From the NCBI RefSeq assembly GCF_014202945.1, contig NZ_JACHHW010000010.1, positions 1 through 64,000 on the forward strand: a stretch of DNA of 64,000 nt, written 5' to 3'. Positions 11,881-26,516 of this stretch are shown in pieces (the stretch's first letter is position 1; the number at the start of each line of letters is the position of its first letter). Below the pieces are notes generated by a model, which had not been told where the DNA came from, did not search any database, and worked only from the letters and a program-made list of their open reading frames with translations. The stretch is from Zhongshania antarctica (GTDB lineage Bacteria; Pseudomonadota; Gammaproteobacteria; Pseudomonadales; Spongiibacteraceae). The position numbers and the translations under genes are program-made.

Positions 11881-12228
11881 TTAGTTCACATCTTCGAACT
11901 TACCGCTGATGTTCGCATCAAATACTTTGCCTTCAGCCGACATCAGGATATAAAGTGCCCGCTCATCGCTAGGGTTAACAAGCTTTACGATAAAGTAGCC
12001 GGGCCCACTCTGGTAAATCGTTGCTGATTCAGCGTCTACTTTCGACCAGCTCTCAGGAACCTTGCCAAAGCCAAGCTGAGGATCGATGCCGGCAAAGCCT
12101 TGGGTGATTTCCGTTGCTATCACCAAAGCCTTTTGTTCGGTAATTGGCGCATGGCCATCTCCATGCGCCAATAGATTAGAGCTTATAAACAAACTTGCGA
12201 GTAAACACAGAGTAATTCGGAGTTTCAT
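11881..12228 (-). CDS. DUF6488-like periplasmic protein
   Basis: A Sec signal peptide (ITLCLLASLFISSNLLA) precedes the mature N-terminus HGDGHAPITEQ, a possible metal-binding stretch. The rest is a small globular domain with GFGKVPESW and LVNPSDERALYILMS. It lies 14 bp after hupE in the same operon. A paralog of equal length is at 28592-28939. Assignment to DUF6488 is from memory; no biochemical role is known to me. Confidence 0.72.
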   Translation of the reverse strand: MKLRITLCLLASLFISSNLLAHGDGHAPITEQKALVIATEITQGFAGIDPQLGFGKVPESWSKVDAESATIYQSGPGYFIVKLVNPSDERALYILMSAEGKVFDANISGKFEDVN

Positions 12229-12242
12229 ATTTTCACCTTTCT

Positions 12243-13118
12243 TTAGTGTCTGTGATAAGCGCCATCGCCGTGTTCATGGGGTGCTTCTTCCTGCGGTGAA
12301 GGCTGAGGAGTGATTATGCGCCGAGGATAGCGATCGAGAATATTTGCTTTCTCTTCCGCTGCCATATCTTCATGGATATGCGAGTGGTCATCGGTATTGA
12401 TCGGGAAATTATCGGCAAGCACTGTGTGCTGGTAGCCATGCAATTGATGCAGGAACAGCAAGCCACCTACGATGACCAACAATGTATTGGCCATTACATT
12501 AAAGCGTTTGAATGAGGCTGTTTTGCGCCACCCTGCCAGCAACACTAACATTGCGGTAAGCGCTGCGATTTGACCCAATTCGACACCGACGTTGAAAGCC
12601 AGGATTTTCATAACGATGCTGCCGTCCCCCATAGGCAATTCCTGCAGCCGAGTCGACAGACCAAAACCGTGAATCAAGCCAAAGCCAAACACCATCCACA
12701 TTAGATTAGGCGACGCCACGCCAAGATAACGTTTGAAGCCGTCGAGATTCTCGAAGCCCTTGTAACAAACGGTGAGTGCAATCACAGCATCAATCAAAAA
12801 GTAATTTGCCTGTACTGAGTAAAGCGTGGCAAACACGAGCGTTATCGAGTGACCCAAGGTAAACGCCGTGATGAACTTTACAATATCGGCAAAGCGGCTG
12901 AGAAAAAATATGACACCAAATAAGAAGAGCAGATGGTCATAGCCGGTAAGCATATGACCTGCTCCCAACAATATGTAATCTGGCAGACCAGCCTCAATTG
13001 CGCGCTGCTTATCTGCCTCAGACATGCCGTGGGCGAGCACATTCACGCTCGTGAACATCAACATTGCTACTGCTGCAATGAGGGCGTAAAAACGACCTGT
13101 AAACATTATTTTCTTCAC
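12243..13118 (-). CDS. hupE: HupE/UreJ-family membrane protein
   Basis: A signal peptide (VNVLA) is followed by HGMSEADKQRAIEAGLPDYI and about six membrane segments with HMLTGYDHLLFLFGV, FTLGHSIT and FGFGLIHGFG, the His-containing motifs of HupE/UreJ nickel/cobalt transporters. The C-terminal tail is His-rich (HSHIHEDM, HEHGDGAYHRH). I chose the GTG at 13118: GGAGC lies 8 bp upstream and the start matches the paralog at 29829. A longer frame reaches 13172 inside czcA. The start abuts the czcA stop (TAATGTG), so translation is probably coupled. Confidence 0.87.
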   Translation of the reverse strand: MKKIMFTGRFYALIAAVAMLMFTSVNVLAHGMSEADKQRAIEAGLPDYILLGAGHMLTGYDHLLFLFGVIFFLSRFADIVKFITAFTLGHSITLVFATLYSVQANYFLIDAVIALTVCYKGFENLDGFKRYLGVASPNLMWMVFGFGLIHGFGLSTRLQELPMGDGSIVMKILAFNVGVELGQIAALTAMLVLLAGWRKTASFKRFNVMANTLLVIVGGLLFLHQLHGYQHTVLADNFPINTDDHSHIHEDMAAEEKANILDRYPRRIITPQPSPQEEAPHEHGDGAYHRH

Positions 13119-13119
13119 A

Positions 13120-16100
13120 TTATGCTCCTTTATCGGCGCGGTGCAGCATCCGGTACAAGGACGGCAGCACAAACAAGGTCAGCAGTGTCGACGACAAAAT
13201 ACCGCCAATCACCACGGTCGCTAGGGGGCGCTGCACCTCGGAACCTATCCCCGTGTTTAAAGCCATTGGTACAAAGCCCAAGGACGCAACCAGCGCAGTG
13301 GTAATGACAGGCCGCAGACGAGTCAGCGCGCCTTCGATAATCGCTGGCTCTAGACCTAGACCATCACGGCGCAGCTCTCTAATAAACGACACCATCACCA
13401 AGCCGTTCAGTATTGCGATACCGGATAGAGCGATAAAGCCCACTGCTGCGGAGATGGAAAAAGGTATATCTCTAAACACCAGCGCTAAGATTCCACCGGT
13501 AAGTGCGAGTGGCACACCGCTGAATATAATCATTGCGTCTTTTAACGAACCAAGTGCTAACAATAAGAGACCGATAATCATGAGCAGAGTCACAGGTACA
13601 ACCACGGCCAGTCGCTGCGAAGCGGATTGCAAGGTTTGATAGGTACCACCGTATTCCACCCAATAGCCTGCTGGCAGTGTTACTTGCGATTCAATGGTTT
13701 CCTTCACATCACTGACAAAGCTGCCAAGATCACGTCCCCGAACGTTCGCAGTCACCACCACGCGGCGTTTACCGTTCTCGCGATTTACCTGATTCAGCCC
13801 CGTCGTCAGCCCAATATCCACCAACTCTTTCAGCGGCACATAGCCACCACCAGATATTTGAATGGGAAGTGAGCCCAACTGGTCAATATCATTGCGTCGG
13901 TCTTCCGGTAGCCGCACAACAATCTCGGCGCGGCGATCACCCTCGTAGAAGAATCCCGCGCCCTGACCACCCATTGCCGTGGCAACTTGATCTTGCAGGG
14001 TATTCAGCTCAACACCATATTGGCCTAGGGCGTACTGTTTAGGCTTAAGCGTCAACATGGATAAACCCGTGGTCTGCTCCATCTGGATATCGACAATGTC
14101 ATCCACTGAGCCGATGACATTTTGAATTTCTCCACCAAGGGTTTCGAGCTGCGATAAATCATCACCGAATATCTTAATAGCTAACTCGGCACGCACGCCT
14201 GACAACAGCTCGTTAAAGCGCATCTGTATCGGCTGAAGAAATTCATAGCGATTACCCGGCACGGGTTCCACCAACGCCGCGAGTTCTTCCACAATCTGGT
14301 TTTTAGGCTTACTCGGATCGGGCCACTGATCGCGCGGTTTTAGGATAATGAAATTATCTGCCACACTCGGCGGAACTGCATCAGTCGCAACATCGGCAGT
14401 ACCGATCTTGGCAAATACCCGCTCTACTTCAGGCATGGTCTTAATAGCGGCTTCCAATGTTTCCTGTAAGGCTACCGCCTGACTAAGCGAGGTGCCCGGA
14501 ATTCTAAGTGCGTGCATCGCGATATCACCTTCATCGAGATTTGGCACAAACTCACTGCCCAAGCGACTGGCCAAGCCAGCACATACAACAAGTAATACCA
14601 ACGCAGCTGCAACCACTGTGCCACGCATAGCGATGGCTTTGCGCAGCAGCCGACCGTAAAGGTTTTTTGTTGCATCAAATGCGCGATTCTCTTTTTCGAC
14701 TACCGGCCCCTTAAACAGCATGGCGATTGCCGCGGGGACAAAGGTGATGGACAGTAGCATTGCGGCACTCAGAGCAATGACCACCGTCATGGCCATGGGG
14801 TGGAACATTTTGCCCTCTACACCGGTTAAGGAGAAAATCGGCAAATACACTGCTGTAATAATAAACACGCCAAACAGTGCGGGCCGTATCACCTCTTTGG
14901 TGGCGCTATACACAACATCTAAGCGCTCATTCAGCGACAAGGTCTGCTTGTCGCTGGCAAGACCCAAACGGCGCAAACAGTTCTCCACGATGATAATGGC
15001 GCCGTCTACGAGTAAACCGAAATCCAATGCACCCAAGCTCATCAGGTTTGCACTAACACCGCTACGTACCATGCCAGTAATAGTCATTAGCATGGCGACC
15101 GGAATAACCGCAGCCGTCAGTAGGGCAGCGCGCACATTGCCTAACAGTAAGAATAAAATAACGATAACCAGCAATGCACCTTCTAGCAGATTGGTCGTTA
15201 CGGTCTTCAGAGTTTTATCCACTAGGCCGGTGCGATCGTATACCGCCGTCGCGGTAATGCCTGCTGGCAAACTCGACTTAATTTCCTCAAGCCGTTCACC
15301 GACCGCTTTGGCAACGGTACGGCTGTTTTCGCCAACGAGCATAAATACCGTGCTCATGACGACCTCGCGACCGTTTTGGGTGGCCGCACCCGTACGCAGT
15401 TCCTTGCCTTCGCCAACAGTCGCAACATCACCAACACGCAGTGGCTGACCATCAAGCGTTTTGATTACAATCCTACTAATATCAGCAAGCGTTTCGGCTT
15501 GCCCCGGAATACGTAACAGCCACTGCGAGCCTTTTTGCTCAACAAAGCCAGCCCCACGGTTTTGATTATTGTCGGCAACCGCATCGATCAGCTCTTGCTG
15601 CGAGATACCATAGGCGAGCATTTTTTCAGGTTGCAGACCAATTAAGACTTCCCGTTTGTAACCGCCAATAGGGTTTACTTCAACCACACCGGGCACACGC
15701 AATAGCTGGGGGCGAATAATCCAATCATGTGCTGAGCGCAAATCCGTTGGCGTAATCAGCTTGCCATCGGCGTCGGTCGCACCCGGTTCAGCGTCCACGG
15801 TGAACATGAAGATTTCACCCAGCCCCGTCGCAATCGGCCCAAGCTCCGGCTCCAGTCCTATTGGCAATTTTGCCCGCACGTTGCCAAGTCTTTCGTTCAC
15901 CAGCTGACGTGCAAAATAAATATCGGTGTCATCACCAAAGATTACCGTGACTTGGGAAAGTCCGTAGCGAGAAACAGATCGGGTGTACTTCAGCTCGGGC
16001 AGGCCTGCCATCGATGTTTCAATAGCGTAGGTAACGCGTTGCTCGATTTCCAGCGGCGTGTAGCCTGGCGCTTCAGTGTTAATTATGACCTGAACATTGG

Positions 16101-16227
16101 TGATATCGGGAACGGCATCAATCGGCAGTCGGTTGAAATTCCATAAACCCAGACCACAAAGCGCAAGCACGGCGGCCATCACCACACCGCGCCGCGCTAG
16201 GGAAAATTGTATAATTGCATCAAGCAT
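13120..16227 (-). CDS. czcA: Heavy-metal RND efflux transporter, CzcA-like (second copy)
   Basis: The 1035-residue protein has the full HME-RND layout with twelve membrane helices and two porter domains. Helix 4 reads DFGLLVDGAIIIVEN, again the Co/Zn/Cd-type pattern with one Val-to-Ile change. It is clearly homologous to the czcA at 6137 but diverged along its whole length, so it is an old paralog and not a recent copy. It is 10 bp after czcB and its stop touches the hupE start. Pairing with hupE suggests nickel, cobalt or zinc, but this is inference. Confidence 0.93.
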   Translation of the reverse strand: MLDAIIQFSLARRGVVMAAVLALCGLGLWNFNRLPIDAVPDITNVQVIINTEAPGYTPLEIEQRVTYAIETSMAGLPELKYTRSVSRYGLSQVTVIFGDDTDIYFARQLVNERLGNVRAKLPIGLEPELGPIATGLGEIFMFTVDAEPGATDADGKLITPTDLRSAHDWIIRPQLLRVPGVVEVNPIGGYKREVLIGLQPEKMLAYGISQQELIDAVADNNQNRGAGFVEQKGSQWLLRIPGQAETLADISRIVIKTLDGQPLRVGDVATVGEGKELRTGAATQNGREVVMSTVFMLVGENSRTVAKAVGERLEEIKSSLPAGITATAVYDRTGLVDKTLKTVTTNLLEGALLVIVILFLLLGNVRAALLTAAVIPVAMLMTITGMVRSGVSANLMSLGALDFGLLVDGAIIIVENCLRRLGLASDKQTLSLNERLDVVYSATKEVIRPALFGVFIITAVYLPIFSLTGVEGKMFHPMAMTVVIALSAAMLLSITFVPAAIAMLFKGPVVEKENRAFDATKNLYGRLLRKAIAMRGTVVAAALVLLVVCAGLASRLGSEFVPNLDEGDIAMHALRIPGTSLSQAVALQETLEAAIKTMPEVERVFAKIGTADVATDAVPPSVADNFIILKPRDQWPDPSKPKNQIVEELAALVEPVPGNRYEFLQPIQMRFNELLSGVRAELAIKIFGDDLSQLETLGGEIQNVIGSVDDIVDIQMEQTTGLSMLTLKPKQYALGQYGVELNTLQDQVATAMGGQGAGFFYEGDRRAEIVVRLPEDRRNDIDQLGSLPIQISGGGYVPLKELVDIGLTTGLNQVNRENGKRRVVVTANVRGRDLGSFVSDVKETIESQVTLPAGYWVEYGGTYQTLQSASQRLAVVVPVTLLMIIGLLLLALGSLKDAMIIFSGVPLALTGGILALVFRDIPFSISAAVGFIALSGIAILNGLVMVSFIRELRRDGLGLEPAIIEGALTRLRPVITTALVASLGFVPMALNTGIGSEVQRPLATVVIGGILSSTLLTLFVLPSLYRMLHRADKGA

Positions 16228-16237
16228 GGGACGTCCT

Positions 16238-17470
16238 TTAGTGGTCGTGTGAAGCGCCAGATTTTTCGATATCGGCCTTGATGATGAAGCTGTTGTCGGT
16301 AACGTATTCAGTTCCCGGCTTTAGCCCACCTAAGACCTCAACCCATTCGCCAGCCTCGCGACCGAGCTCTAGCATGCGCACTTCGTATTGATCGCCCACT
16401 TTGGCGTAGACCACGGTGAAATCCCGGAAGCTTTGCAGTGCCTTCCGCTTTACCGCAAGCGGCACTTCATAGCGAGCCACTTCGACATCGCCGCGAATAA
16501 AGCTCCCCGCTGGCAGCGCAAGATTGCTGGCATCAACACTAACCCTGATGTCTGCAGATTGATCGGCATTCAGCAGCGGAGAAATCCACTGCACCTCGCC
16601 TTCACCAATGACGTCCATCGTATCGTTGCGCAACTGCACGCTGTTGTTTAGCGCAATTCGACGCCGGTCGTCAGGGTAGGCTTTGAGTAAAACCACTTGG
16701 CGGGAACGATCAACAATACTCACCAGCGCGCGACCAGCAGTCGCTTCGCCGATATTGACCGGCAGGGCCGCAATTTCACCGGCAATATCGGCGCGCAACA
16801 CATAGGATTTCAGGCTTTCGTTACTCTCGATACTCATCAACGGAGTGCCCGCTTTCACCTGCTGACCTAAGCTAACGTGAATGGCTTTAATCACACCGTC
16901 GAAACGGGCACTTAACTGCGTTAAAGCATTGGTATCGGCTACCAGTCGACCGAAGAGCGGCAGCTGCTCGACGAGCACTTGTGAACGCGCAGTACCAGTG
17001 GTGATACCCATGGCGTCAGCAACATCGTCATTAATCCGAGTTCGCCCTTCAAAATTATCGTACTGCCACTCATAGCGCTTATCGCCGTAAGCCGCATTAA
17101 GCGTAACGAGAAAAGAATGTGGCTCGACTATTTCCATATCACCGCGCAAAAAATCGTCTTGCGGCCTGAAATTGATTTGATCGTCGCCATCACCGAGGCG
17201 CCCCAAAGTAACGCTCACCTTGACGTTTTCTGGCGGCAATGCCTCGCCACCTTGACTTGCCCAGACACGAAACTCAGGCGGTACGCCGGTCTCGAAGATT
17301 GCCAATTCAATCGCGAAATCACCCTCGCGCAACATACGCCCTCGGTGCGGGCCTTTTTCAGGTTCAATTTCCTGGACTTCGGCGCCAACGGCGAGTGCAG
17401 CGCTACTTAAGCTCATTAATAGCGAGACAAGCATACTGACGATTAACGATCGTTTTACTGAATTACTCAT
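16238..17470 (-). CDS. czcB: Periplasmic adaptor of RND pump, CzcB-like (long form)
   Basis: A signal peptide (MLVSLLMSLSSAALA) precedes an extra N-terminal beta domain (about 30-140, with EKGPHRGRML), which the first czcB lacks. The barrel-sandwich core follows (SARFDGVIKAIHVSLGQQVKAG; IAGEIAALPVNIGEA), and the protein ends KSGASHDH. This N-terminal domain is common in CzcB-type adaptors and may bind metal. Length is 410 residues. It overlaps czcC by 4 bp (ATGA). Confidence 0.9.
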   Translation of the reverse strand: MSNSVKRSLIVSMLVSLLMSLSSAALAVGAEVQEIEPEKGPHRGRMLREGDFAIELAIFETGVPPEFRVWASQGGEALPPENVKVSVTLGRLGDGDDQINFRPQDDFLRGDMEIVEPHSFLVTLNAAYGDKRYEWQYDNFEGRTRINDDVADAMGITTGTARSQVLVEQLPLFGRLVADTNALTQLSARFDGVIKAIHVSLGQQVKAGTPLMSIESNESLKSYVLRADIAGEIAALPVNIGEATAGRALVSIVDRSRQVVLLKAYPDDRRRIALNNSVQLRNDTMDVIGEGEVQWISPLLNADQSADIRVSVDASNLALPAGSFIRGDVEVARYEVPLAVKRKALQSFRDFTVVYAKVGDQYEVRMLELGREAGEWVEVLGGLKPGTEYVTDNSFIIKADIEKSGASHDH

Positions 17471-18774
17471 GGATTTACCTCATCGTTGCCCAACAGTGGC
17501 AAACCGGTTAGACGTTCAATTTCGACGCGTGTGAGCTGTGCTTTAAACTGGCTATCTAATAAATGACTGCGTGTCGCGAGCAATTCCTGCTGCACCCCGC
17601 GCCAATCTTGGTAGCTGTACCGGCCAAGCTGGTAGGCGTTACGGGCTTCTTTCTGGGCTTGTTCAAGCGTTGGAATAATTTGCTCACGCAGTGCGCCAAC
17701 CACATGCTGCGCGTGCTGAAACTCTTGAAGCAAAACATACAAGCGCGCTTCCAGCGCTAATTGCACTGCGTCAACATCAGCACGATAAGCATCACGCTCC
17801 GCAGCTAAAGCGGCTATACGTCCGCTATTACGCTGTTCCCCCCCTAAGGGCACGGTAAAGCCAGCCACTAAGGCGTAGTCGTCGGTATTTTCAAAACGCC
17901 TTACACCGGTTGAGAACTGCCACCTGGACTGGGCTTCCGTTTTCGCTAAAGCGATTTCGGATTGCGCCACTCGCTCTTGGCTGAGTAGTTTCCGTACACG
18001 CGGATGACTGCTTAGATGCTGCGCCAGATCCTCGTAATTCAATCTATCCGTGGCTATTGCAAGCGAGCCGGAAGCAGTTTCAAAATCGGGTTCGCGGGCA
18101 TTCCACTGGGTCGCCAACATCCGCTTAGCGCCGCGAATTTCATGATCTAAATCTTCCAAGGCGATATCTGCCCGCGCCAGCTCAGCCTCGGCCCGAAGTT
18201 TGTCAGCGAGCAGCGATTTGCCTGCATCCATGCGTTTTGACAGTTCTTTTACAACTGATTCCGCTTGCGCTCTTGCGGCTGTAGCGAGCTCTTTACGCTG
18301 CTGATATACGACTACGGTGAGAAATTTCCGGGCGGTCTCGGCGGCCACATCCAGAGTCTTTATCGCTTGCTCATCGCTAATCACCTGTTTTTGCACGTCA
18401 GCGCTACGTCCGCGTTGCTCCAGTAAGTCGCCCTCTAAAATCCAACTAATACTGAGCGTCGACTGAAGGCTGTCGGCGCCACTGTAATCGCCGGATCCAA
18501 AGCCATCCTCAACACTTAAGCCAAGCTGGGGGCGATTGCCGACCCGTGCCTGCTGCGCCATTCCATCGGCAGCAGCGCGACGGTAGTTAAAGGCTTGGAG
18601 CTCTGGGTGTTTAGCAAAGCTTCGTTGGATGGCCTCGTTTAATGTTAAGGATTTCTCGGCCACAGAGGCCGTCGACATAGTCAGCAATAACGGAATTAGA
18701 ATAAGCGTTTTATGCCAAAAAAACCGATTCACAATCGGTTTTTTTGGCATTCGAAACGGACTAAAAGCATGCAT
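17467..18774 (-). CDS. czcC: TolC-family outer-membrane channel, CzcC-like (second copy)
   Basis: Two OEP repeats are visible, starting at SLTLNEAIQRSFAKHPELQAF and ending near YQLGRYSYQDWRGVQQELL. The signal region is KTLILIPLLLTMSTASVA. The ATG at 18774 has GAGG 8 bp upstream. Codons 9 to 21 form a perfect 18-bp hairpin ending in T7 that looks like an intrinsic terminator (see the entry at 18712). It is 9 bp after the M56 peptidase gene and so reads as the third gene of the BlaI-M56-czcCBA-hupE operon. Confidence 0.88.
   Translation of the reverse strand: MHAFSPFRMPKKPIVNRFFWHKTLILIPLLLTMSTASVAEKSLTLNEAIQRSFAKHPELQAFNYRRAAADGMAQQARVGNRPQLGLSVEDGFGSGDYSGADSLQSTLSISWILEGDLLEQRGRSADVQKQVISDEQAIKTLDVAAETARKFLTVVVYQQRKELATAARAQAESVVKELSKRMDAGKSLLADKLRAEAELARADIALEDLDHEIRGAKRMLATQWNAREPDFETASGSLAIATDRLNYEDLAQHLSSHPRVRKLLSQERVAQSEIALAKTEAQSRWQFSTGVRRFENTDDYALVAGFTVPLGGEQRNSGRIAALAAERDAYRADVDAVQLALEARLYVLLQEFQHAQHVVGALREQIIPTLEQAQKEARNAYQLGRYSYQDWRGVQQELLATRSHLLDSQFKAQLTRVEIERLTGLPLLGNDEVNP
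18712..18750 (-). terminator. Terminator-like hairpin inside the 5' end of czcC
   Basis: An 18-bp perfect stem (18712-18729 with 18733-18750) has a 3-nt loop. On the minus strand the core ACCGATT/AATCGGT is preceded by A7 and followed by T7, the layout of an intrinsic terminator. It encodes residues 9-21 of czcC. It could attenuate transcription between the regulatory pair and the pump genes, with translating ribosomes melting it. Confidence 0.6.
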
Positions 18775-18783
18775 AAATAAGCC

Positions 18784-19737
18784 TCAATGACTAAAAATTG
18801 CTTCAATCGCATGATGATAACTGTCTACGCTCAAAAGGCAGGAAGCCAAAAGTACGCACAGAAATACAACAAACAAGGATAAGGGGAAACCGCGGCCTGG
18901 TTCAGACCTCAGCTGATAATGAACGCGCGCTTCAATTTCAGACGCATAGAAATGACAAGACAAGGGACTGGGAAATTGCTGTTGATTTCGCGACAAACGG
19001 CATAGTTTTATCACGGTACTAGCAACTGTGGTGCCACCCGATCCGCCTCCAGCCGCATAATCATCTGCAGCCAGCTCCAGGCATAAAGAAAATTCGCGGC
19101 GTAACCGGTGGCTAATGACTGGCAGATAAAACGCGGCAAGAAAGGAAAAAGACCACTTCCGTAAAGGGTCAAGCCGCAGCTGGTGGGCGAGTTCATGGCG
19201 AGAAACGATGTCATTTTCAGCCGCAGATAATTGTGCCTGCAAGGCAGGACTGATGAAAACTTTAGGCCGGAAAAGACCAGCGGTGAACGCATAAATCACC
19301 GTAGAGCCCAAACTACTATTTTTAGTAAAACCATCAAGGCTAAGCAGCGCACCAAGGGCAGACCGATGCTTAAGCAATTGGTGAGTATGACGAACTATCG
19401 CTAGGAAAAACGTCGCGGCAAATAGAAGTACCAGCACGCTATGCCAGCTATAAAAGTTGAAAACATTAATATGGTGCCAATGGGTAAGCGCCAAGAACCA
19501 CGAGGGCATAGCAACGGCAGAATCGGGCATCAGCACAACGCTTGTAACGCTTAGAGCAACAAGCCAAGGGATCAAAACAAATGACCACAACACCCATTGG
19601 CGAGCGCCTGCGGATAGTTTGACTCGCCACCGCTCAGTAGTTCGAAAAACTAAAGAAAGAATTAGGGCGCAATAGAAAAACACCGATGCGGCAATAAACA
19701 CGCTATTTAGGGTAATTGCATAGCCGCCGACAAGCAT
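18784..19737 (-). CDS. M56-family (BlaR1-like) membrane metallopeptidase
   Basis: Four or so N-terminal hydrophobic segments precede a cytoplasmic zinc-protease motif HELAH at 181-185, with the third ligand in ELAAD (E221). A further hydrophobic segment lies near the C-terminus (FVVFLCVLLASCLLS). In BlaR1/MecR1 this enzyme leads to cleavage of the BlaI/MecI repressor. Here the extracellular penicillin-binding sensor is missing (317 residues in all). It follows the BlaI-like gene by 2 bp and precedes czcC, so it probably senses metal or envelope stress. Confidence 0.85.
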   Translation of the reverse strand: MLVGGYAITLNSVFIAASVFFYCALILSLVFRTTERWRVKLSAGARQWVLWSFVLIPWLVALSVTSVVLMPDSAVAMPSWFLALTHWHHINVFNFYSWHSVLVLLFAATFFLAIVRHTHQLLKHRSALGALLSLDGFTKNSSLGSTVIYAFTAGLFRPKVFISPALQAQLSAAENDIVSRHELAHQLRLDPLRKWSFSFLAAFYLPVISHRLRREFSLCLELAADDYAAGGGSGGTTVASTVIKLCRLSRNQQQFPSPLSCHFYASEIEARVHYQLRSEPGRGFPLSLFVVFLCVLLASCLLSVDSYHHAIEAIFSH

Positions 19738-19739
19738 TC

Positions 19740-20120
19740 TTATTTCCCCGATTTATCGCTGGCGCGGCGCTGATCAATAAGCGATTCCAATGCCTGCAAT
19801 TGCGTTTCGGTCATTTCTGCTGATAGTGAACTAAACGCAGCCAGTAGCGTGTCTTCACTATCAGTGTAGTCGGCAGCGACCTCGCGCACCAACCGAGCCA
19901 GAAAAGTATCTTTGCCCATAGCTGCGCGATAAATAAAGGCATGACCTGACTTATTGCGAAACAAAAGCTTCTTTTTATATAAGCGATCAAGGGTACTTTG
20001 GATCGTGTTCAACGTCCTTACTGTATCATCCGCTAGCTCGCGATGTACCCGCTTGGCGTCTGCTTCATCAGTATCCCAAAAATACTGAAGAACTGACTTT
20101 TCCAAATTTCCCAATTGCAT
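19740..20120 (-). CDS. BlaI/MecI/CopY-family transcriptional repressor
   Basis: The 126-residue protein starts LGNLEKSVLQYFWDTDEADAK and has the winged-helix segment TLNTIQSTLDRLYKKKLL of the BlaI family, followed by a C-terminal dimerisation region (TDSEDTLLAAFSSLSAEMT). It heads the operon with an M56 peptidase and the czc genes, and is expected to repress the operon until the peptidase removes it. I could not identify a convincing BlaI operator in the short upstream gap. Confidence 0.87.
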   Translation of the reverse strand: MQLGNLEKSVLQYFWDTDEADAKRVHRELADDTVRTLNTIQSTLDRLYKKKLLFRNKSGHAFIYRAAMGKDTFLARLVREVAADYTDSEDTLLAAFSSLSAEMTETQLQALESLIDQRRASDKSGK

Positions 20121-20202: not shown

Positions 20203-20369
20203 GCAATGGAGACGACGGGTTAACAGGGCAAATAGACGCGGAAACGCTTGAATATGGCTGGTTAAAACAATAAATCCCCCGCTATACATAACATGGATAA
20301 ATTCAAGCCTGGCCGACCAATTTTCACAGATGACGAGCGCACTGAATTTAGTTTGGACGATTGGCCGTA

Positions 20370-20987
20370 TCAATTTGTCCGCTTGAAATGACAATAAATG
20401 AAACGCTGCATTTTTCCTATGGGCGTCTGGTGCAATTCCTCTTCGTGGCCCAATAATTCAAACTGCGCGCCTAATTCGGCGTGTAAGGTGCTTGGCGAAT
20501 AACGACGCACAGGCAGGCCGCTGCATTGTTCAGGGCCATCTTCGGAAAAAGTCGCAATGATCACGTGCCCACCTAATTTCACGCTATCTAAAACTGCCTC
20601 GACATAGCGGCGCCTATCCGCGCCCTCTATCAGAAAGTGGAATACCGCACGGTCATGCCATAAGTCGATACCCTGAGCCGGAAGGAGGTAGTGAAAGATA
20701 TTTCGTTCAATCCATTGTACTTTTTTTGAAGCTTCTCCTAGTCGTTTTTTGGCCGCGTTAAGTGCCGCCCCAGATAGATCCATAACAGTTACATTAGTAA
20801 AATTATTTTCCAGCAATGAATCTACAAGTGTCGAAGCACCGCCGCCGACATCGATTATTTGTGCCGTTTTATCAAGATTGATTTGCTGAATAATGTGCAG
20901 AGAATAGGAAGCGTGGGCCTGAAACCAACTTACCGAGTTCGTTGACATTGTTGTGTATACCGCCTCCCAATGCGCTTTAGTGTTCAT
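20370..20987 (-). CDS. SAM-dependent class I methyltransferase
   Basis: From the ATG at 20985-20987 (GAGGGGG upstream) the product is 205 residues, starting MNTKAHWEAVYTTMSTNSVSWF. The SAM-binding motif is IIDVGGGASTLVDSLL, followed by the acidic motif VTVMDLSG and WHDRAVFHFL. The family includes small-molecule methyltransferases of the thiopurine/tellurite type (TPMT/TehB-like). A longer frame reaches 21077 without a ribosome site. The substrate is unknown; a role in metalloid methylation would suit the island but is a guess. Confidence 0.82.
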   Translation of the reverse strand: MNTKAHWEAVYTTMSTNSVSWFQAHASYSLHIIQQINLDKTAQIIDVGGGASTLVDSLLENNFTNVTVMDLSGAALNAAKKRLGEASKKVQWIERNIFHYLLPAQGIDLWHDRAVFHFLIEGADRRRYVEAVLDSVKLGGHVIIATFSEDGPEQCSGLPVRRYSPSTLHAELGAQFELLGHEEELHQTPIGKMQRFIYCHFKRTN

Positions 20988-21084
20988 AAAGGCCCCCTCA
21001 TCGAATTTTAAAAACTCTTTTGGCGCACTACCTTCAAGTAAATACCCATCCGTACAACTATATCTCGCGCTTACCAATATTCAC

Positions 21085-22413
21085 TTAGTTAAACGTTTTT
21101 GAAACCGCCAGAGTTATTTCGTTGCGCTGGTAGCTATAAGCATCAAAGTTGGAGTCGTTATTCCAATGCGTCGCTTCAAGCCTTGTCGACCAGCCGCGAC
21201 TGAGCTGATAGCGAACGCCGACTTGAGTACTCCAGCGCTTATCGTCCCTTTCCGCCTCTAAAGCGCCCGCGCGAATTTCTTGCTCGTCATAGCGACTTAT
21301 ACGGTAATCACCCGAAAACTCGGCAGTTAGGTTTGTAACCAGAGGTAAGCTAGCGTGCAGAGAAAACGTATGTTGCAGCGGTGACGCACTAAAGCGCTCA
21401 CTTATCGCACCAGTACTATCGGTGGTAATTAATTGATTGCGATCATTAAGATTCAACTCATAGCCAACACGCCAACGCAGCGACGCGAAAGTGTCGTTGT
21501 AGCGCATGCGCAGTTGCATTCGCTCGCCTGATAAATAGTCATAGCCGTTGCCATCGTCGCCGTTGACCGTTTCCAGCGCGATACGGGTATCAATATACGC
21601 GGACGGCAACGAATATTGTGCATTTAACGCAGCGTTGATGCTGTTCTGAATGGTATCGCCACCAATGTCGAGTTGGCTTGCCGTTAATTGATAGTCTAGG
21701 CGCCATGCGCGCAGCAACTGTATATACCCTACACCAATACCCAGATTGGTGGCGTCTTCATCATTCACGTCAGCGTAGCGTCGAATATAGCCAGTGCCAC
21801 TGATGTAGCCACCTTGCTTCGCATCGCCGCCAAAATGATACCGGCCGTACAAGAGCGTACCTAAGAAATTGTCGCCATCACGCTCCACCGCGAGGTTACT
21901 CGTTTCATCGACCAGCTGTGGATTGCTGTCGTTACCAACAAGAGCTTCTAAATAAACGATGTACGGGACGATGGCGCTGTCGCGCAAACCCAGCTTACGT
22001 TCTGCAAGTCGCCGCAGTGTTTCCGTCGTGGCAATATTCCGTGACTTTTCAAACCACTTTGCAGCATCGGCTTGATTCCCACGCTTTTCTTCGACGAGGC
22101 CCATATTGTAATAACTCAGCGAGGCCAACTTTTCTGAACGGCTAGCCTCTCCAAATGCGGTGAGGGCTGCTGAATAACGACCTTGCTTGAAATAGGCCAC
22201 GCCAAGATTATGGTAGAGTGCGGCGGAGGTTTTACCGGCTTTTTTAGCTTGTAGGAAGCGCTCTACTGCTTGGGCGTAGTCCCCGGCTTTAGACGAGACC
22301 ACACCCTGTTTAAATGCATCATTCGCTGTGGTCGAGGCGAATACAGAATGAGGCGACATTGCCGCGATGGCGATGGCCAACGCTGCGAAATACTTCGGTG
22401 AGGTCAACGGCAT
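21085..22413 (-). CDS. TPR plus beta-barrel outer-membrane protein (Slam/DUF560-like architecture)
   Basis: A signal peptide (AALAIAIAAMSPHSVFA) is followed by TPR repeats at about 30-150 (for example AALYHNLGVAYFKQGRYSAAL and LSYYNMGLVEEKRGNQADAA). From about 150 to the C-terminus alternating strands form a beta-barrel ending in LAVSKTFN, with a terminal aromatic two residues from the end. The segment VGNDSNPQLV at the junction resembles the start of barrels in Slam-type translocators. It lies behind the sigma/anti-sigma genes and two small secreted proteins, so it may export or display them. The family call is uncertain. Confidence 0.65.
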   Translation of the reverse strand: MPLTSPKYFAALAIAIAAMSPHSVFASTTANDAFKQGVVSSKAGDYAQAVERFLQAKKAGKTSAALYHNLGVAYFKQGRYSAALTAFGEASRSEKLASLSYYNMGLVEEKRGNQADAAKWFEKSRNIATTETLRRLAERKLGLRDSAIVPYIVYLEALVGNDSNPQLVDETSNLAVERDGDNFLGTLLYGRYHFGGDAKQGGYISGTGYIRRYADVNDEDATNLGIGVGYIQLLRAWRLDYQLTASQLDIGGDTIQNSINAALNAQYSLPSAYIDTRIALETVNGDDGNGYDYLSGERMQLRMRYNDTFASLRWRVGYELNLNDRNQLITTDSTGAISERFSASPLQHTFSLHASLPLVTNLTAEFSGDYRISRYDEQEIRAGALEAERDDKRWSTQVGVRYQLSRGWSTRLEATHWNNDSNFDAYSYQRNEITLAVSKTFN

Positions 22414-22442
22414 AGTACATCCTCAATCACTTATTATAATAA

Positions 22443-22488
22443 AAACACCGCGACCGAGATTGCGGTGTTTCGCTACACAAGTGTAGCG
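22443..22488 (-). terminator. Two adjacent hairpins between the small secreted gene and the barrel gene
   Basis: AAACACCGC (22443-22451) pairs with GCGGTGTTT (22462-22470), and immediately after CGCTACAC (22471-22478) pairs with GTGTAGCG (22481-22488). On the minus strand the second-read stem is followed by a T-rich run (GTTTTTATT), so it can act as an intrinsic terminator or attenuator before the barrel gene. Confidence 0.6.
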
Positions 22489-22519
22489 TGAAATTTCTTA
22501 GTAGCATCGCTATTATACG

Positions 22520-22843
22520 CTAGCGATTATTCTGTGGGCTTGGCACGTTTATATCTGGGCGATTACTTTGGCCACCACCATTTTCTCTGGCATCTTGTGA
22601 ACGCTGGGCACCCTGCTGGCTGCCTTGCTGGCGCGCTTGATTGGAGTTTTCCATGCCATTACCCGAATTGTCACGGGCTTGTTCAGCCGCCTGGATAGGC
22701 AATGATATTTCATTAATAAAGCTGTCTTCTGAGAAGGCTTCATTTTCAATAATGGTTAATGTAACGTCCAATTCCTCGGCTGCATATGAGGGCAGAGCAA
22801 CGAGATAAAGAAAAGTTGGCAATAGTAATAGGCGCATTTTCAT
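22520..22843 (-). CDS. Small secreted NQARQ-motif protein 1
   Basis: A clear Sec signal peptide (LLLLPTFLYLVALPSYA) is followed by a mature chain of about 85 residues. The C-terminal half is rich in Gln, Asn, Gly and Arg and contains GME-x2-NQARQ-x-G and then ARENGG. The same pattern occurs in the next protein upstream (22899-23339). No Cys, no domain I recognise, and probably disordered. It is transcribed with, or after attenuation from, the sigma factor operon. Confidence 0.7.
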   Translation of the reverse strand: MKMRLLLLPTFLYLVALPSYAAEELDVTLTIIENEAFSEDSFINEISLPIQAAEQARDNSGNGMENSNQARQQGSQQGAQRSQDARENGGGQSNRPDINVPSPQNNR

Positions 22844-22857
22844 AATCGAAATCCTCT

Positions 22858-22887
22858 AAAAGAAAAGTGGCGCGCAATGCGCACCAC
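22858..22887 (-). terminator. Hairpin with U-run after small secreted protein 2
   Basis: GTGGCGCGC and GCGCACCAC (22867-22887) form a GC-rich stem with G-T pairs; on the minus strand it is followed by TTTTCTTTT. It lies just after the stop at 22899 and before the ATG at 22843, so it can terminate or attenuate between the two small secreted genes. Confidence 0.6.
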
Positions 22888-22898
22888 GCTTCTATATC

Positions 22899-23339
22899 TT
22901 AACGTTCAGGGCGACCACCGGGACGATTAGTTGCGGCTTCTGGAGCCTCTGGACGGTTAGTTGCCGCTTCTGGTGCATCGGGACGTCCGCCATTATTGCG
23001 GGCTTGTTCTGCACGCTCACGACCAAAATCAGCGCCACGCTGGCGGGCTTGATTCGCAGTTTCCATGCCTTTTGCAGAGCTCAAGCGACCTTGCTCAGAT
23101 GCTGAGGCAGGTAGGGCGAGCATCCGCTCTTCGGAAGCCATTTCTTCGTCTTCGACTGCTTCCATGGTGCCGTCATCTTCTACTTCTACAACGGTATTGT
23201 CATCAGTAGACTCTACCACCGTGCTGTCGTCAGCTGTTGTTTCAACTGGATCAGTAGTTGATTCCTCTTGAGCATAGGAAATAAGGGGCAAGGCAGTAAG
23301 TCCAAGAGCAAGTGCAAATATAGTCAGTGTGTTTTTCAT
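22899..23339 (-). CDS. Small secreted acidic NQARQ-motif protein 2
   Basis: I chose ATG at 23337-23339, giving the signal peptide MKNTLTIFALALGLTALPLI; an upstream in-frame start at 23357 would add six residues. The mature N-terminal half is very acidic and Thr/Val-rich (TTADDSTVVESTDD, VEVEDDGTMEAVEDEE). The C-terminal half contains GME-x2-NQARQ-x-G, ARNNGG and a short tandem repeat PEAATNRP. The NQARQ/NGG block is shared with the neighbouring 22520-22843 protein. Function unknown. Confidence 0.7.
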   Translation of the reverse strand: MKNTLTIFALALGLTALPLISYAQEESTTDPVETTADDSTVVESTDDNTVVEVEDDGTMEAVEDEEMASEERMLALPASASEQGRLSSAKGMETANQARQRGADFGRERAEQARNNGGRPDAPEAATNRPEAPEAATNRPGGRPER

Positions 23340-23365
23340 ATTAATTACCTCTAACATTATGGCGC

Positions 23366-24043
23366 TTAGGCCGTAAACCCACGGGTGGCGCGCAAAGTCG
23401 CACCTGCAGGGTATGAGTGCGTATCGGCCTGAATGCCAATGCGCATGATTTGATGTTTACCGCTGTGTTCGATACGAAGTACTAACTCAGTGTTCAAATT
23501 GTCTTTGTTGGCGATAAGCGGAAGCGTTAGCCGGTTGTCGCCTTTTTGTAGTGATGCAGTCCAACGTAGCTCGCGCTGATCAGGGTAGCCCGCTAATTGC
23601 ACTCCGTCGGGGAGCTCCAATGTCAAAACCGCATCGTTCATCGTCGATAAACTGGAAAGCGCGAACGTGACATCTTTGGCTTCAGCAAACGTTAGCGATA
23701 CCCACTGCTGCTTAACTCCGTCATCATCACTAAAAGGCGCATTGCTTGAGCGGTCCAGAAATAGCGCCCCGGTAATGGCCAAACACAGCAGTGATGCGGC
23801 TATGCCGAACTGCAGAGCACCGCTGCGCTTTTTGATGGGTGCCCCTAATAAAATTGGTAATGCCTCAGGCATTTTTGGCGCCGACAATTGGCTTAGCGCC
23901 GCGATAATGCGCTGCGCACGTTTTGCCTCAGCCTGACATCTTGCGCAGCTATCTAAATGATCCTCGAACGCTTTTAGCTGCACTGCGGATAATTCTCCGT
24001 CCAGCCAGTTGTCGAGTTGATTGTCGCAAATATCGCAGTTCAT
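23366..24043 (-). CDS. Zinc-finger anti-sigma factor
   Basis: The N-terminus has the ZAS/zf-HC2 motif: C3, C6, then H29-x3-C33-x2-C36 within a helical cytoplasmic domain. One membrane segment is at about 77-96 (LQFGIAASLLCLAITGALFL). The periplasmic part of about 125 residues is beta-rich (VLTLELPDGVQLAGYPDQREL, LPLIANKDNLNTELVLRIEH). It should hold the ECF sigma factor encoded just upstream until a periplasmic signal arrives. An ECF-type promoter overlaps the end of the sigma gene directly ahead of it. Confidence 0.88.
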   Translation of the reverse strand: MNCDICDNQLDNWLDGELSAVQLKAFEDHLDSCARCQAEAKRAQRIIAALSQLSAPKMPEALPILLGAPIKKRSGALQFGIAASLLCLAITGALFLDRSSNAPFSDDDGVKQQWVSLTFAEAKDVTFALSSLSTMNDAVLTLELPDGVQLAGYPDQRELRWTASLQKGDNRLTLPLIANKDNLNTELVLRIEHSGKHQIMRIGIQADTHSYPAGATLRATRGFTA

Positions 24044-24065
24044 AATTTGTCCTCTTACCCTTTAC

Positions 24066-24090
24066 ACGACTGAGGTGCTTAAAAGGTTGC
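24066..24090 (-). promoter_or_regulatory. ECF-type promoter ahead of the anti-sigma gene
   Basis: On the minus strand GCAACC (24085-24090) and CGT (24066-24068) are separated by 16 bp, the -35 and -10 layout of ECF promoters. It lies in the last codons of the sigma gene. The block GATGCAACCTTTT is identical to the one upstream of the sigma gene, which supports autoregulation by the same factor. Confidence 0.65.
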
Positions 24091-24633
24091 ATCAACCAGA
24101 AAAAAACGAAGTGATTTTCTCGCGCGGTGAAGTCGTGACTTCAATGTGCCGAGTGGCTCCTGCAGAATATTTTCCAGTTCAGTCAATGACATACCCTCAA
24201 CATCATGCAAAATCACAAGGTCTCTTTGGTTCACGGGAAGTGATTCCAGCGCAGTTTGCAATTGTTGTTGGAGTTGCTCATTTTGCGCCTGGTCGGCGGG
24301 GCCCGCAGCGCTATCCACTAGTTGGTCAGTAAAATCTGTGTCGTCAGCGCTGGTGATGGTTGAAAACGTCACCGGCTGCAACTTGGTACGGCGATAACCG
24401 TCGACAAAAAGGTTGTAGAGCGAACGTTTTAACCATGTTTGCGGGGAATCGAGCTTGTCCAGCTGATTAGGCTTGCTTAAAAATTTCGCTGCGAGTTCTT
24501 GAATTAAGTCTTCGCTGTCCGCTTGATTACCGGACAGACGGAAAGCCATCCGGTAAAGATCGGGTAAGTGGCTATTCAAGATGTCGTCTGCGGATGATCT
24601 CGACTTGCGCCGCCAAGACAGAATATTTGCCAT
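24079..24633 (-). CDS. ECF-type RNA polymerase sigma factor
   Basis: The 184-residue protein has sigma region 2 at about 18-85 (LPDLYRMAFRLSGNQADSEDLIQE, then TWLKRSLYNLFVDGYRR) and region 4 at about 125-178 (LESLPVNQRDLVILHDVEGMSLTELENIL, then GTLKSRLHRARKSL). Regions 1.1 and 3 are absent, as in ECF factors. It is 35 bp ahead of its anti-sigma factor. It is expected to activate its own promoter and the cassette downstream. Confidence 0.92.
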   Translation of the reverse strand: MANILSWRRKSRSSADDILNSHLPDLYRMAFRLSGNQADSEDLIQELAAKFLSKPNQLDKLDSPQTWLKRSLYNLFVDGYRRTKLQPVTFSTITSADDTDFTDQLVDSAAGPADQAQNEQLQQQLQTALESLPVNQRDLVILHDVEGMSLTELENILQEPLGTLKSRLHRARKSLRFFLVDATF

Positions 24634-24710
24634 AAAAGCAGTAAACCCAGTTGTTATGATTGCGCCGATTAAGCTTACTTGACTGTTTTGCGCTAGCTTA
24701 TATCACTATC

Positions 24711-24735
24711 ACGAATGAGATAGGCAAAAGGTTGC
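24711..24735 (-). promoter_or_regulatory. ECF-type promoter of the sigma factor gene
   Basis: GCAACC (24730-24735) and CGT (24711-24713) on the minus strand are 16 bp apart, followed by a 78-bp leader to the sigma start. It shares GATGCAACCTTTT and a CGTG -10 with the promoter at 24066-24090. Confidence 0.65.
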
Positions 24736-24919
24736 ATCAAATTTAACGAAAATCGCTTATGGGCTGGCTGGCTTTCCATCCCGGCTATTGCGCCGCCATC
24801 ATCCGCCCCGCGCTAGACAAAAGCTTGGAAGATGCTAACAGAGGCGGTGGTACAAAAACCGGGGGCTAGCGTCACGTCGCTTAGGATATCAATGGTATAC
24901 GCTAAAGTGCCAAGCCTCA

Positions 24920-25090
24920 GCCTCAGTACACCCGAGGGCAAACACACGGTATGTCTTGCAAAAAAGGAAGCAATTAGCAAGGATTACACTATCTAAAAAA
25001 TACATTACCCAGAGCGACTAATTAGGCCCTAGGTTTGCGAATTGAATAGCGTAATTTTCCATAATTGTTTTCCTTATTGCAAGACATACC
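24920..25090. mobile_element. MITE-like element, copy 1
   Basis: GGTATGTCTTGCAA starting at 24948 and its reverse complement ending at 25090 are terminal inverted repeats that continue as AAGGAA/TTCCTT and imperfectly further in. That defines a 143-bp non-coding unit. A stretch of 120 bp from 24920 recurs with substitutions at 27887-28014. No transposase is inside. No target duplication could be seen. Confidence 0.55.
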
Positions 25091-25158
25091 TGGTGGGCAC
25101 TTTGCTCAATAAAATCCGATTTTGATACGGCAATCCGTTGGCACACAAGAAATAGATT

Positions 25159-25180
25159 CCTCACTTCGGTGAGGTTTTTT
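25159..25180 (+). terminator. Small terminator hairpin
   Basis: CCTCAC and GTGAGG enclose a TTCG tetraloop-type sequence and are followed by TTTTTT on the plus strand. It is well formed but has no obvious upstream gene on that strand, so it may belong to a small RNA or to the mobile element remnant. Confidence 0.55.
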
Positions 25181-25374
25181 GTGCAGCGTTAATCATCAGG
25201 TTTAAATTCCTACTTTGAGTTGTGGATATTATTTATCCAAAGAACAGTAGCTATTGATACTCGCGCTTCCCTATTACTTTGTCCCTCTGATCAAAGCTCG
25301 GGCCTATGGGTTAAAAAATCAACGTGTTAATAGGAAAGGCTCTACGACTCAAAAGCCTTGACGACTTGGGCACA

Positions 25375-25454
25375 GCGACTGACCGCTAATGTGACGCAAG
25401 AGCCAGACACCTTAGCGGTCAGGCTGTATTTCTTTAACCGGTAAAAAGCGGACG
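25375..25454 (+). repeat. 80-bp dispersed element, copy C
   Basis: It begins GC plus GACTGACCGCTAATGTGAC (25377-25395) and ends GGTAAAAAGCGGACG (25440-25454), with 44 bp between, exactly the arrangement of the inverted copy at 1781-1860. The internal part also repeats TTAGCGGTCA. No coding sense found. Confidence 0.55.
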
Positions 25455-25652
25455 GCCAAACACACACAATCCAATAAAGGTCGTAGGTTTTCATAGAGGC
25501 GATCATAATACTTCTAGCCAGGTGACCAAATTCACTATGCCACTACACCATGCTTGGAAGCACCTGGAGTACTAATAAACAGATTCCGATTGCGCTTCTT
25601 CTTAGCGACAAATATTTAAGTAAAGTAGATGTATGTACTGTGGGTCGGCGGT

Positions 25653-26516
25653 TCAGCTAATACGCTTGAACGGTGCTAGCATTTGTGAAATATAAGCTAC
25701 GGGATAATCCGGCGCGGTTCCGATGCCCAGATCTTCTGAACGGATAACTCTCTCCTTGTCATAGTACGCAGTGCCTAAGAGATGATCCGTTAATGTTGTG
25801 AATAGACCGAAGTTGACATCGCCTTCTTTTGCCGTATTCAGGTGGTGGAAGCGATGAACTTGATTGATAGCTAGAACAGATCTGAGCGGCCCTGCGAAAT
25901 AGGCAACATTGGAATGTTGCAGTAACAACTGGATAACCACCGCAACAACCAGCAGCAGTAAGACTTCTTGTGGAGCGCCCATCAAGAGTAGCGGGGCAGT
26001 ACCTGCAAGGGTTTCAATAGTTTGATGCAAGGGGTGTTTCATCAGACCGTTAAACCCATACATACGTTTCACGCTATGATGTACTGCATGTAGCTGCCAC
26101 AGCGCGCTGTACCTATGACTGGCGTAATGTGCCAGTGTAATACCTATATCGGCTATGATCACCGCCAACAACACTTGCAACCACAGCGGTGCGTAGGAGG
26201 GCCAAATTGAATTAAATGGGATAAAACTAGCAATGATTGGGACACTTAATACGCCGACAATACTCAGTGATTCATTGACTAAAGCATGAATAACATCACG
26301 CCCCGAGTCTGCTTGAGGCTTGTTGAATTCGGGACTAAATGGCATCCATTGTTCAATTAAGAACGACACAGCGATGAGTAAGCCAACCCATGCAACCAAG
26401 GCTAATTTCGAATAATCTTGTTCTGCCATATAAATAGCAAAGCCATTTCCTACGATCAGAAAGAAAGGCAAGTAAAGGACTTTGACAAACATTTCCAATG
26501 TGCTTTTCATATGCAA
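25653..26516 (-). CDS. Sterol desaturase / fatty acid hydroxylase superfamily protein
   Basis: An integral membrane protein of 287 residues with the three di-iron histidine clusters HYASH, HAVHH and HRFHH, in the usual order and spacing. Such enzymes hydroxylate or desaturate lipids using O2 and a di-iron centre. The start could be the first ATG at 26516 or the second, two codons on. It is preceded by an AraC-type regulator on the same strand, 65 bp away, which may control it. The substrate is unknown. Confidence 0.85.
   Translation of the reverse strand: MHMKSTLEMFVKVLYLPFFLIVGNGFAIYMAEQDYSKLALVAWVGLLIAVSFLIEQWMPFSPEFNKPQADSGRDVIHALVNESLSIVGVLSVPIIASFIPFNSIWPSYAPLWLQVLLAVIIADIGITLAHYASHRYSALWQLHAVHHSVKRMYGFNGLMKHPLHQTIETLAGTAPLLLMGAPQEVLLLLVVAVVIQLLLQHSNVAYFAGPLRSVLAINQVHRFHHLNTAKEGDVNFGLFTTLTDHLLGTAYYDKERVIRSEDLGIGTAPDYPVAYISQMLAPFKRIS

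Follow-up and report, generated by a model that had tools for sequence, protein, structure and literature searches.

The stretch of DNA analysed here, hereafter the window, comprises 64,000 nucleotides of Zhongshania antarctica (contig NZ_JACHHW010000010.1, positions 1 to 64,000), and our subject is a cassette of five genes on its minus strand. It encodes an extracytoplasmic function (ECF) sigma factor, a zinc-finger anti-sigma factor, two small secreted-type proteins and an outer-membrane protein that joins tetratricopeptide repeats (TPRs) to a beta-barrel. The order in which the initial annotation had placed these genes held, all the open reading frames (ORFs) being present at the positions given, with support from Pfam for the sigma, anti-sigma and barrel proteins. 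The features, in the direction of transcription, are as follows.

24710..24736, minus: candidate ECF promoter upstream of the sigma gene, TGCAACCTTTT-N12-CGTG, backed by the family consensus from a de novo search
24079..24633, minus: ECF sigma factor, 184 aa (Pfam Sigma70_r2 47.0 bits, Sigma70_r4_2 54.0 bits)
24065..24091, minus: second candidate ECF promoter, where the sigma gene ends and shortly before the anti-sigma gene begins
23366..24043, minus: anti-sigma factor of the zinc-binding anti-sigma (ZAS) type, with zf-HC2 at residues 3-37, a hydrophobic segment at ~77-96 (by eye) and a predicted periplasmic immunoglobulin (Ig)-like beta-sandwich at 114-207
22899..23357, minus: ORF of small secreted protein 1 (motif hidden Markov model (HMM) E 2e-3, its segment being part of the training set); an ATG at 23339, preceded by GAGGT, is more probably the true start and gives 146 aa
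23106..23189, minus: motif of small protein 1, residues 51-78 counted by hand from the start at 23339
22867..22887, minus: terminator-like hairpin between the two small-protein genes (hairpin and terminator scans)
22520..22843, minus: small secreted protein 2, 107 aa (motif HMM E 4e-9, segment likewise part of the training set)
22694..22780, minus: motif of small protein 2, residues 22-50 counted by hand, right behind the presumed signal peptide
22430..22500, minus: a pair of hairpins between the gene of small protein 2 and the barrel gene, with a T run behind the second (hairpin scan and our own looser rule)
21085..22413, minus: TPR and beta-barrel outer-membrane protein, 442 aa (Pfam TPR_2, BBP2_2, SlipAM)
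21994..22326, minus: presumed periplasmic TPR domain of the barrel protein, residues 30-140
21091..21963, minus: 14-stranded barrel domain, residues 151-441

When 145 genomes, the window's own and those of 144 relatives, were searched with the barrel protein, ten further full-length relatives emerged at 20-29% identity. In all ten loci the sigma gene is followed by the anti-sigma gene, then by one or two small-protein genes and finally by the barrel gene. With a barrel profile, matches at E<=1e-20 were found in 34 of 390 genomes of the window's order, three of these matches being distant and without a visible cassette, and in 42 of 369 genomes of class Gammaproteobacteria, most but not all of which were checked for the cassette. 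At the distant TPR-barrels L151, L152 and L153 the cassette genes were looked for and none was found. From these searches we assembled 151 loci: the window, the first ten, 60 wider loci and 80 from named genomes. Besides the window's own, 35 of the 49 class profile rows were fetched, plus L305, and 12 were left out, mostly weaker or partial ones. Some species occur twice, through the genome search and the scan of named genomes, so that the loci are partly non-independent.

A strong barrel match (E<1e-60) was present in 125 loci, in 114 of which (the window included) it starts more than 2.6 kb from the locus start; we refer to these as strong inner loci. Sigma and anti-sigma genes are found on the strand of the barrel gene and within 6 kb of it in 112 of the 114. 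The initial annotation had proposed that co-occurrence of the five genes in other genomes be examined, and what emerges is a conserved unit. It had also named the absence of the small proteins beside homologous sigma/barrel pairs as grounds for giving up its idea; they are there, in 102 of the 114 loci by HMM and in the other 12 by eye. Since the same genes recur in many families, and nearly always in the same order, the five-gene set is not a chance neighbourhood. We conclude from the comparison of sequences that four kinds of protein form a single unit across genomes: the sigma factor, the anti-sigma factor with its zinc finger, the TPR-barrel and a secreted-type protein whose head is constant and whose tail varies. 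A promoter-like element recurs in this unit, before the sigma gene, the anti-sigma gene or both. Among the 11 strong loci that begin within 2.6 kb of the locus start, seven are without sigma and anti-sigma, mostly at contig starts. The 26 loci with a weak barrel match (E>1e-60) were excluded from the counts; 23 of them have no sigma, anti-sigma or motif protein, L244 and L261 have all three, and L250 has sigma and anti-sigma only.

Departures from the usual layout are few. In three Desulfobacteraceae loci (L217, L220 and L221) the order is permuted to barrel, sigma, anti-sigma, small protein. The two strong inner loci that lack an adjacent sigma and anti-sigma, L145 and L185, keep a small protein together with the barrel (motif E 2e-5 in L145; E 0.5, accepted by eye, in L185). 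Conversely, a profile of the anti-sigma factor run over 381 genomes of the order gave 34 matches in 32 genomes, 32 of them (30 genomes) inside barrel cassettes, while the other two, in genomes G195 and G131, lie in a set of sigma, anti-sigma and a diverged small protein (by eye) with no adjacent barrel, the sigma gene of G131 being cut by the contig end. As it is kept in L145 and L185 without sigma and in G195 and G131 without barrel, the small protein appears as the common denominator of the cassette, accompanying both the barrel-less and the sigma-less versions, with three of these four loci judged by eye.

These exceptions bear on a rival explanation, according to which the cassette is a surface-sensing device whose small protein threads or plugs the barrel and reports the status of the outer membrane to the beta-sandwich of the anti-sigma factor. 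Precedents exist in RcsF, which is threaded through porins, and in FecA, which signals to FecR. The near-constant presence of sigma and anti-sigma beside strong barrels favours such a device, as do the two genomes in which sigma, anti-sigma and small protein persist with no barrel next to them, whereas the retention of small protein and barrel without adjacent sigma and anti-sigma in L145 and L185 speaks against it. We regard it as possible, though on balance improbable.

The cassette is patchy in its distribution, as only one of 17 other genomes of the window's own genus has a full-length relative, ~20% identical. In a sample of the phylum 4 of 299 genomes were positive, all of the window's own order, and a search for the operon in plasmids gave no match. 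Named carriers include many Marinobacter records, Candidatus Thiodiazotropha, Chromatiales, Halospina and Desulfobacteraceae.

The small proteins have in common a segment of ~30 residues, D-L-D-x-T-M-x-V-V ... I-x-L-P, usually located at the mature N-terminus (by eye); in small protein 1 of the window an acidic stretch of ~27 residues separates it from the signal peptide. An HMM of 38 such segments, run on 10,351 ORFs from the 151 loci, from which the training segments also came, gave 111 matches at E<0.01, all on the barrel's strand and at most 6 kb from it, and none elsewhere. At that threshold 102 of the 114 strong inner loci have a motif protein, as do 53 of 57 strong loci from named genomes, which lie outside the training set, some of their species being also among the training loci. 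In the remaining 12 strong inner loci (L047, L048, L148, L149, L150, L164, L171, L173, L185, L188, L221 and L237) a small ORF with a weaker motif was accepted by eye, L237 being taken together with L188, whose contig is equally long. The small proteins thus look like one family, to judge by the shared segment. In the window's pair and several relatives a second segment, A..G-x-x-x-A-N-x-A-R, is discernible by eye in the tail. Neither of the window's two small proteins matches a Pfam family at E<=10, and a sequence search of the PDB with the small proteins gave one match, at E 0.038.

Statistics on 81 members from a thinned set (117 loci reduced to 90 by 12-mer sharing) describe a protein with two dissimilar parts. 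A hydrophobic stretch precedes the motif in all 81. The part behind the motif has a median of 92 aa (48-239), 28% D+E and 1% F+W+Y, the proteins are Cys-free from the motif onward, and the isoelectric point (pI) of the tail is <5 in 69%; on composition the tails look disordered and of low complexity. A constant head followed by a variable tail fits a tag with its passenger, and the spread of the tails in length and composition is more cargo-like than sensor-like, a further point against the sensing device. The same Cys-free, aromatic-poor and mostly acidic composition would suit another explanation, in which the small proteins are periplasmic, disordered stress proteins (buffers of metals or ions, or chaperones) and the barrel is a co-regulated porin with which they have no contact. 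This leaves unexplained both the conserved N-terminal motif beside a variable tail and the pairing of small protein and barrel without an adjacent sigma gene, and we consider it very unlikely.

A motif protein also exists away from the cassette. In genome G653, on a contig (C3) other than the cassette's, a gene at ~567976 (L300) is preceded by the ECF promoter with one mismatch and encodes the motif (23.0 bits; E 1e-7 in a small ORF set). We regard it as a candidate orphan cargo; for a sensor such a gene would be harder to accommodate. Secreted-looking proteins of other kinds were seen at three loci: an Ala/Ser-rich protein with no recognisable motif lies between anti-sigma and motif protein in L044 (6574-7323) and L139 (4170-5057, reversed orientation), and in L301 (5815-6585, minus) a 256-aa protein with DADGN-like repeats stands beside a barrel-less cassette with a promoter-like site upstream of it.

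The barrel protein of the window scores 35.4 bits against BBP2_2 (cut-off 23.7), on the C-terminal third of that profile, and 23.5 bits against SlipAM (cut-off 22), in addition to its TPRs. Its AlphaFold2 model (predicted local distance difference test (pLDDT) 90.5, predicted template modelling score (pTM) 0.71) has seven helices at residues 30-140 and 14 long strands, counted from the listed elements, at 151-441. Among 52 barrel members TPR_2 is present in all and TPR_Slam (PF24575) in 10; at E<=0.01, BBP2_2 (PF10082) is matched by 29 and SlipAM by six. Compared by hhalign with PF04575 barrels, represented by eight environmental matches of 20-35 bits (one just below the cut-off) that are not verified Slams, the family gave 99.95% at E 1.1e-36 over 283 of 292 columns, with 6.4% for the reversed control. 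Four rows, namely the window, one cassette, L316 and L318, were omitted from the PF04575 set. On this alignment full-length homology links the barrel to the Slam-like barrels of PF04575. No solved Slam is among the 50 best fold matches listed (Foldseek, VIA), which is no evidence of absence. A peptide-binding signature in the conservation of the TPRs was considered and dropped, the conserved Asn of each repeat being the ordinary TPR consensus.

The frequency of BBP2_2 matches, together with matches to EpsL and the PEP-CTERM outer-membrane protein that are weak and well under their cut-offs, and with BcsC as the top Foldseek match of the model, could suggest that the TPR-barrel is a PgaA/BcsC/EpsL-like porin for the export of a polysaccharide or small molecule, the small proteins being its periplasmic accessories. 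No glycosyltransferase or synthase was found among the scanned neighbours (8 + 4 genes, 9.3-27.4 kb, beside the cassette). The model also has 14 strands, as against the 16 of PgaA and BcsC. On these two grounds an exopolysaccharide porin of the PgaA and BcsC type was rejected, and export of a polysaccharide or small molecule in general seems to us unlikely.

The sigma factor consists of regions 2 and 4 only, and the adjacent anti-sigma factor, by its position, is taken to be its cognate partner. The latter scores 33.4 bits against zf-HC2 and has the HxxxCxxC zinc finger; C3, H29, C33 and C36 are invariant in two alignments (A2, 11 rows; A7, 39 rows). Its model (pLDDT 78.3) has helices at 3-51, a low-confidence region at 71-109 that holds the hydrophobic segment, and the beta-sandwich at 114-207. 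As the beta-sandwich matches generic Ig-like folds only, we propose no ligand. FecR-type signalling was rejected, since the Pfam scan of the cassette gave no match to FecR, a plug or a TonB receptor. In genome G557 a second full cassette (L305, contig C19) has an extremely acidic small protein and an anti-sigma-like protein apparently without the zinc finger.

A de novo search for dyads of five and four bases around the sigma start in the 90 thinned loci, with 120 bases after the start included, returned GGAAC-N17-CGTG as the top pair, in 21 loci, compared with 6 for the best pair in composition-keeping shuffles; the family consensus is GGAACC-N16-CGTG. A second pair, CATCT-N19-GCCT, comes close, with 20 loci, and is probably sigma coding sequence, as the 120 bases past the sigma start were part of the search. 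The window has the GCAACC variant twice (GCAACCTTTT-N12-CGTG), upstream of the sigma gene and at its 3' end, both within a 31-bp direct repeat of 81% for which 0.01 matches would be expected in the window. TGCAAC-N17-CGTGWNA, drawn from these two sites, matches nowhere else in the genome. The upstream copy, at 24710-24736, extends right up to the edge of the interval given in the initial annotation. Of the 90 loci, 56 have a similar site at the end of the sigma gene, ahead of the anti-sigma gene, 22 have one upstream of sigma, and 12 have both. Of the 105 same-strand sites, a further 22 are in other parts of the loci and five between the anti-sigma start and the barrel. The three Desulfobacteraceae loci yielded no site, and neither did L145 and L185.

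The background in 952 kb of loci was 17 sites on the opposite strand and eight on reversed sequence. Nine of the 17 lie beside the sigma start, and since six of these nine loci have a divergent DUF4382-like gene there, part of this background may be real. Such a gene, of an envelope lipoprotein type, occurs near sigma in 26 of the 90 loci and is divergent in 24 (for example in L040, L041, L043 and L039/L293), which would be in keeping with the stress-protein explanation. In genome G116 (L293) it is preceded by the ECF promoter element; the one DUF4382 gene of the window's genome has no such promoter nearby. Genome-wide scans of 25 cassette-bearing genomes gave 30 sites, against 10 for the reversed pattern, and none in six genomes. 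We assign 21 of the 30 to cassettes or their immediate surroundings and nine to other places, so that as a group the off-cassette sites are at background. Two of these nine stand ahead of secreted low-complexity genes (L300, which has the motif, and L297) and two ahead of larger genes (L282, a beta-propeller, and L299, DUF6748), while L276, L278, L290, L291 and L295 precede nothing sensible.

The initial annotation had further supposed that hairpins between the genes could set expression ratios. Hairpins do occur in the window, at 22844-22905 (z -3.1, listed as terminator-like) and 22430-22540 (z -3.05, passing our looser rule). The total for 20300-25700, 10 terminator sites where 6.2 (sd 2.5) are expected, is unremarkable. 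Across the family, terminator-like hairpins in the gap between small-protein and barrel genes are enriched over shuffles (0.8 expected), which sustains part of the supposition, but they occur in only 11 of 77 loci.

As the most likely reading, we suggest that the cassette could serve the Slam-like export, under control of its sigma factor, of disordered proteins that carry a docking tag at the N-terminus. We give this reading, in which export itself is inferred, an even chance of being right. In this scheme an envelope signal would free the sigma factor, which would then transcribe the operon that encodes it, starting at the two GCAACC-N16-CGTG promoters. Sec would carry the small proteins across the inner membrane, and the barrel protein, probably via its periplasmic TPR domain, would recognise as a docking tag the segment conserved at or close to the mature N-terminus. 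The variable, mostly acidic tail would be the passenger, passing through or displayed by the 14-stranded barrel, as Slams do for lipoproteins, and a terminator-like hairpin ahead of the barrel gene (in the window and 10 other loci of the 77) could ensure that cargo outnumbers barrel. The small protein may, in addition, send a signal to the anti-sigma factor, given that it stays with sigma and anti-sigma in two genomes without an adjacent barrel. A more elaborate version, in which the anti-sigma factor reads the transit of passengers exported through the TPR-barrel by the N-terminal tag and a build-up of cargo in the periplasm switches sigma on or off, is in our view doubtful.

Several observations weigh against export of this kind. 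Both known features of Slam cargo are absent from the small proteins (a lipobox-like pattern in one of 81; no Pfam match; tails with hardly any aromatic residues), the crude AxA rule is met in only 48 of 81, and a pI >8 in 17% of tails means that acidity is not universal. The TPR fold is a generic one, in which we could single out no residues for binding. By VIA, the best-matching folds of the barrel are the porins CymA and OmpG; CymA has its own N-terminus in the barrel lumen, so that this match would rather suit the sensing device. Because the diverged small proteins of G195 and G131 are kept with sigma and anti-sigma and no adjacent barrel, the partner of the small protein may instead be the anti-sigma factor. 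Finally, the protein distances of the four cassette proteins are correlated across 79 cassettes (Spearman 0.40-0.66; permutation maxima 0.13-0.19); that they diverge together speaks for the export reading, but joint vertical descent alone would also yield such correlations.

According to the accessible part of PMC5449769, Slams combine a TPR domain with a predicted 14-stranded barrel, their cargo has an eight-stranded barrel and often a lipobox, and an N-terminal lipobox is present in the neighbouring cargo of ~52% of 353 Slams. The cassette resembles Slam and type XI systems in its N-terminal TPR and 14-stranded barrel, in its homology to PF04575 and in the adjacent putative cargo gene. It differs in that the putative cargo has no lipobox or C-terminal eight-stranded barrel, in an apparently N-terminal recognition element with a disordered-looking tail, and in its dedicated ECF sigma and anti-sigma genes. 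The link to Slam that the initial annotation had drawn from the TPR and barrel therefore stands as regards architecture and PF04575 homology, whereas plain membership in Slam or type XI was rejected because the small proteins have neither of the two published cargo features. A missing lipobox is not decisive by itself, since lipidation is absent from some Slam substrates, hemophilin among them.

In their accessible parts, PMC8406197 and PMC12282271 extend Slam to type XI secretion, the latter having studied clusters 1 and 3, of which cluster 3 rarely has a known cargo domain; the word "sigma" is absent from the main texts of both. What could be consulted of PMC9090332 (Slam and Skp) and of PMC8103513 (a review of ECF factors, which names TPR only for ECF42) contains nothing on the cassette. 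Among the papers listed by our searches of the open-licence literature, none describes it in its title or in the opening of its abstract, and an earlier mention, for example in ECF classification tables, is possible.

Other known systems share single parts. With the BBP2_2 (PF10082) putative porins and EpsL the cassette has in common a barrel above the PF10082 cut-off in the window and in over half of the members tested; it differs by the lack of polysaccharide genes among the scanned neighbours and by its TPR domain and its linkage to a secreted protein and a sigma factor. Its regulatory pair has the domain make-up of ECF sigma factors with zinc-binding membrane anti-sigma factors, the GGAAC-type -35 element usual for ECF sigmas and a promoter before its own gene, but it is linked to a secreted protein family and a TPR-barrel. 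FecI/FecR/FecA likewise combines a sigma factor, a membrane anti-sigma factor and an outer-membrane barrel, whereas here zf-HC2 stands in place of FecR and a 14-stranded TPR-barrel in place of a TonB-dependent receptor, which in FecA has 22 strands.

If the export reading is correct, the Slam/type XI architecture would gain a second class of cargo. This class would be under a sigma factor of its own, and its address would be a short tag close to the mature N-terminus, where known cargo has a folded C-terminal barrel. Since the passengers look disordered and vary freely, the tag could be useful for the display or secretion of chosen sequences, and a purpose would be given to a family whose two members in the window match no Pfam family. 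The presence of the cassette in named Marinobacter strains, and of the barrel widely in Gammaproteobacteria, makes these proposals directly testable.

The cassette is flanked on one side by a methyltransferase gene, followed by a BlaI/M56 pair and an efflux set of the resistance-nodulation-division (RND) type, and on the other by an OlsE-like fatty-acid hydroxylase gene; flanking genes are not noticeably common to the loci of relatives, as far as ORFs around these were read by eye. The tripartite RND set (window 11881-20120, minus) consists of an AcrB-type pump, an HlyD-type adaptor and an OEP channel, is preceded by an M56 BlaR1-like peptidase (under the Pfam cut-off) and a BlaI/CopY-type repressor, and is followed by HupE/UreJ-like and DUF6488 genes; it is possibly a protease-controlled metal efflux unit. 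Elsewhere in the family the barrel genes of L165/L219 and L244/L245 appear interrupted, either by a stop inside the match or by division into two reading frames in Marinobacter salarius, and the cassette may be decaying at these loci.

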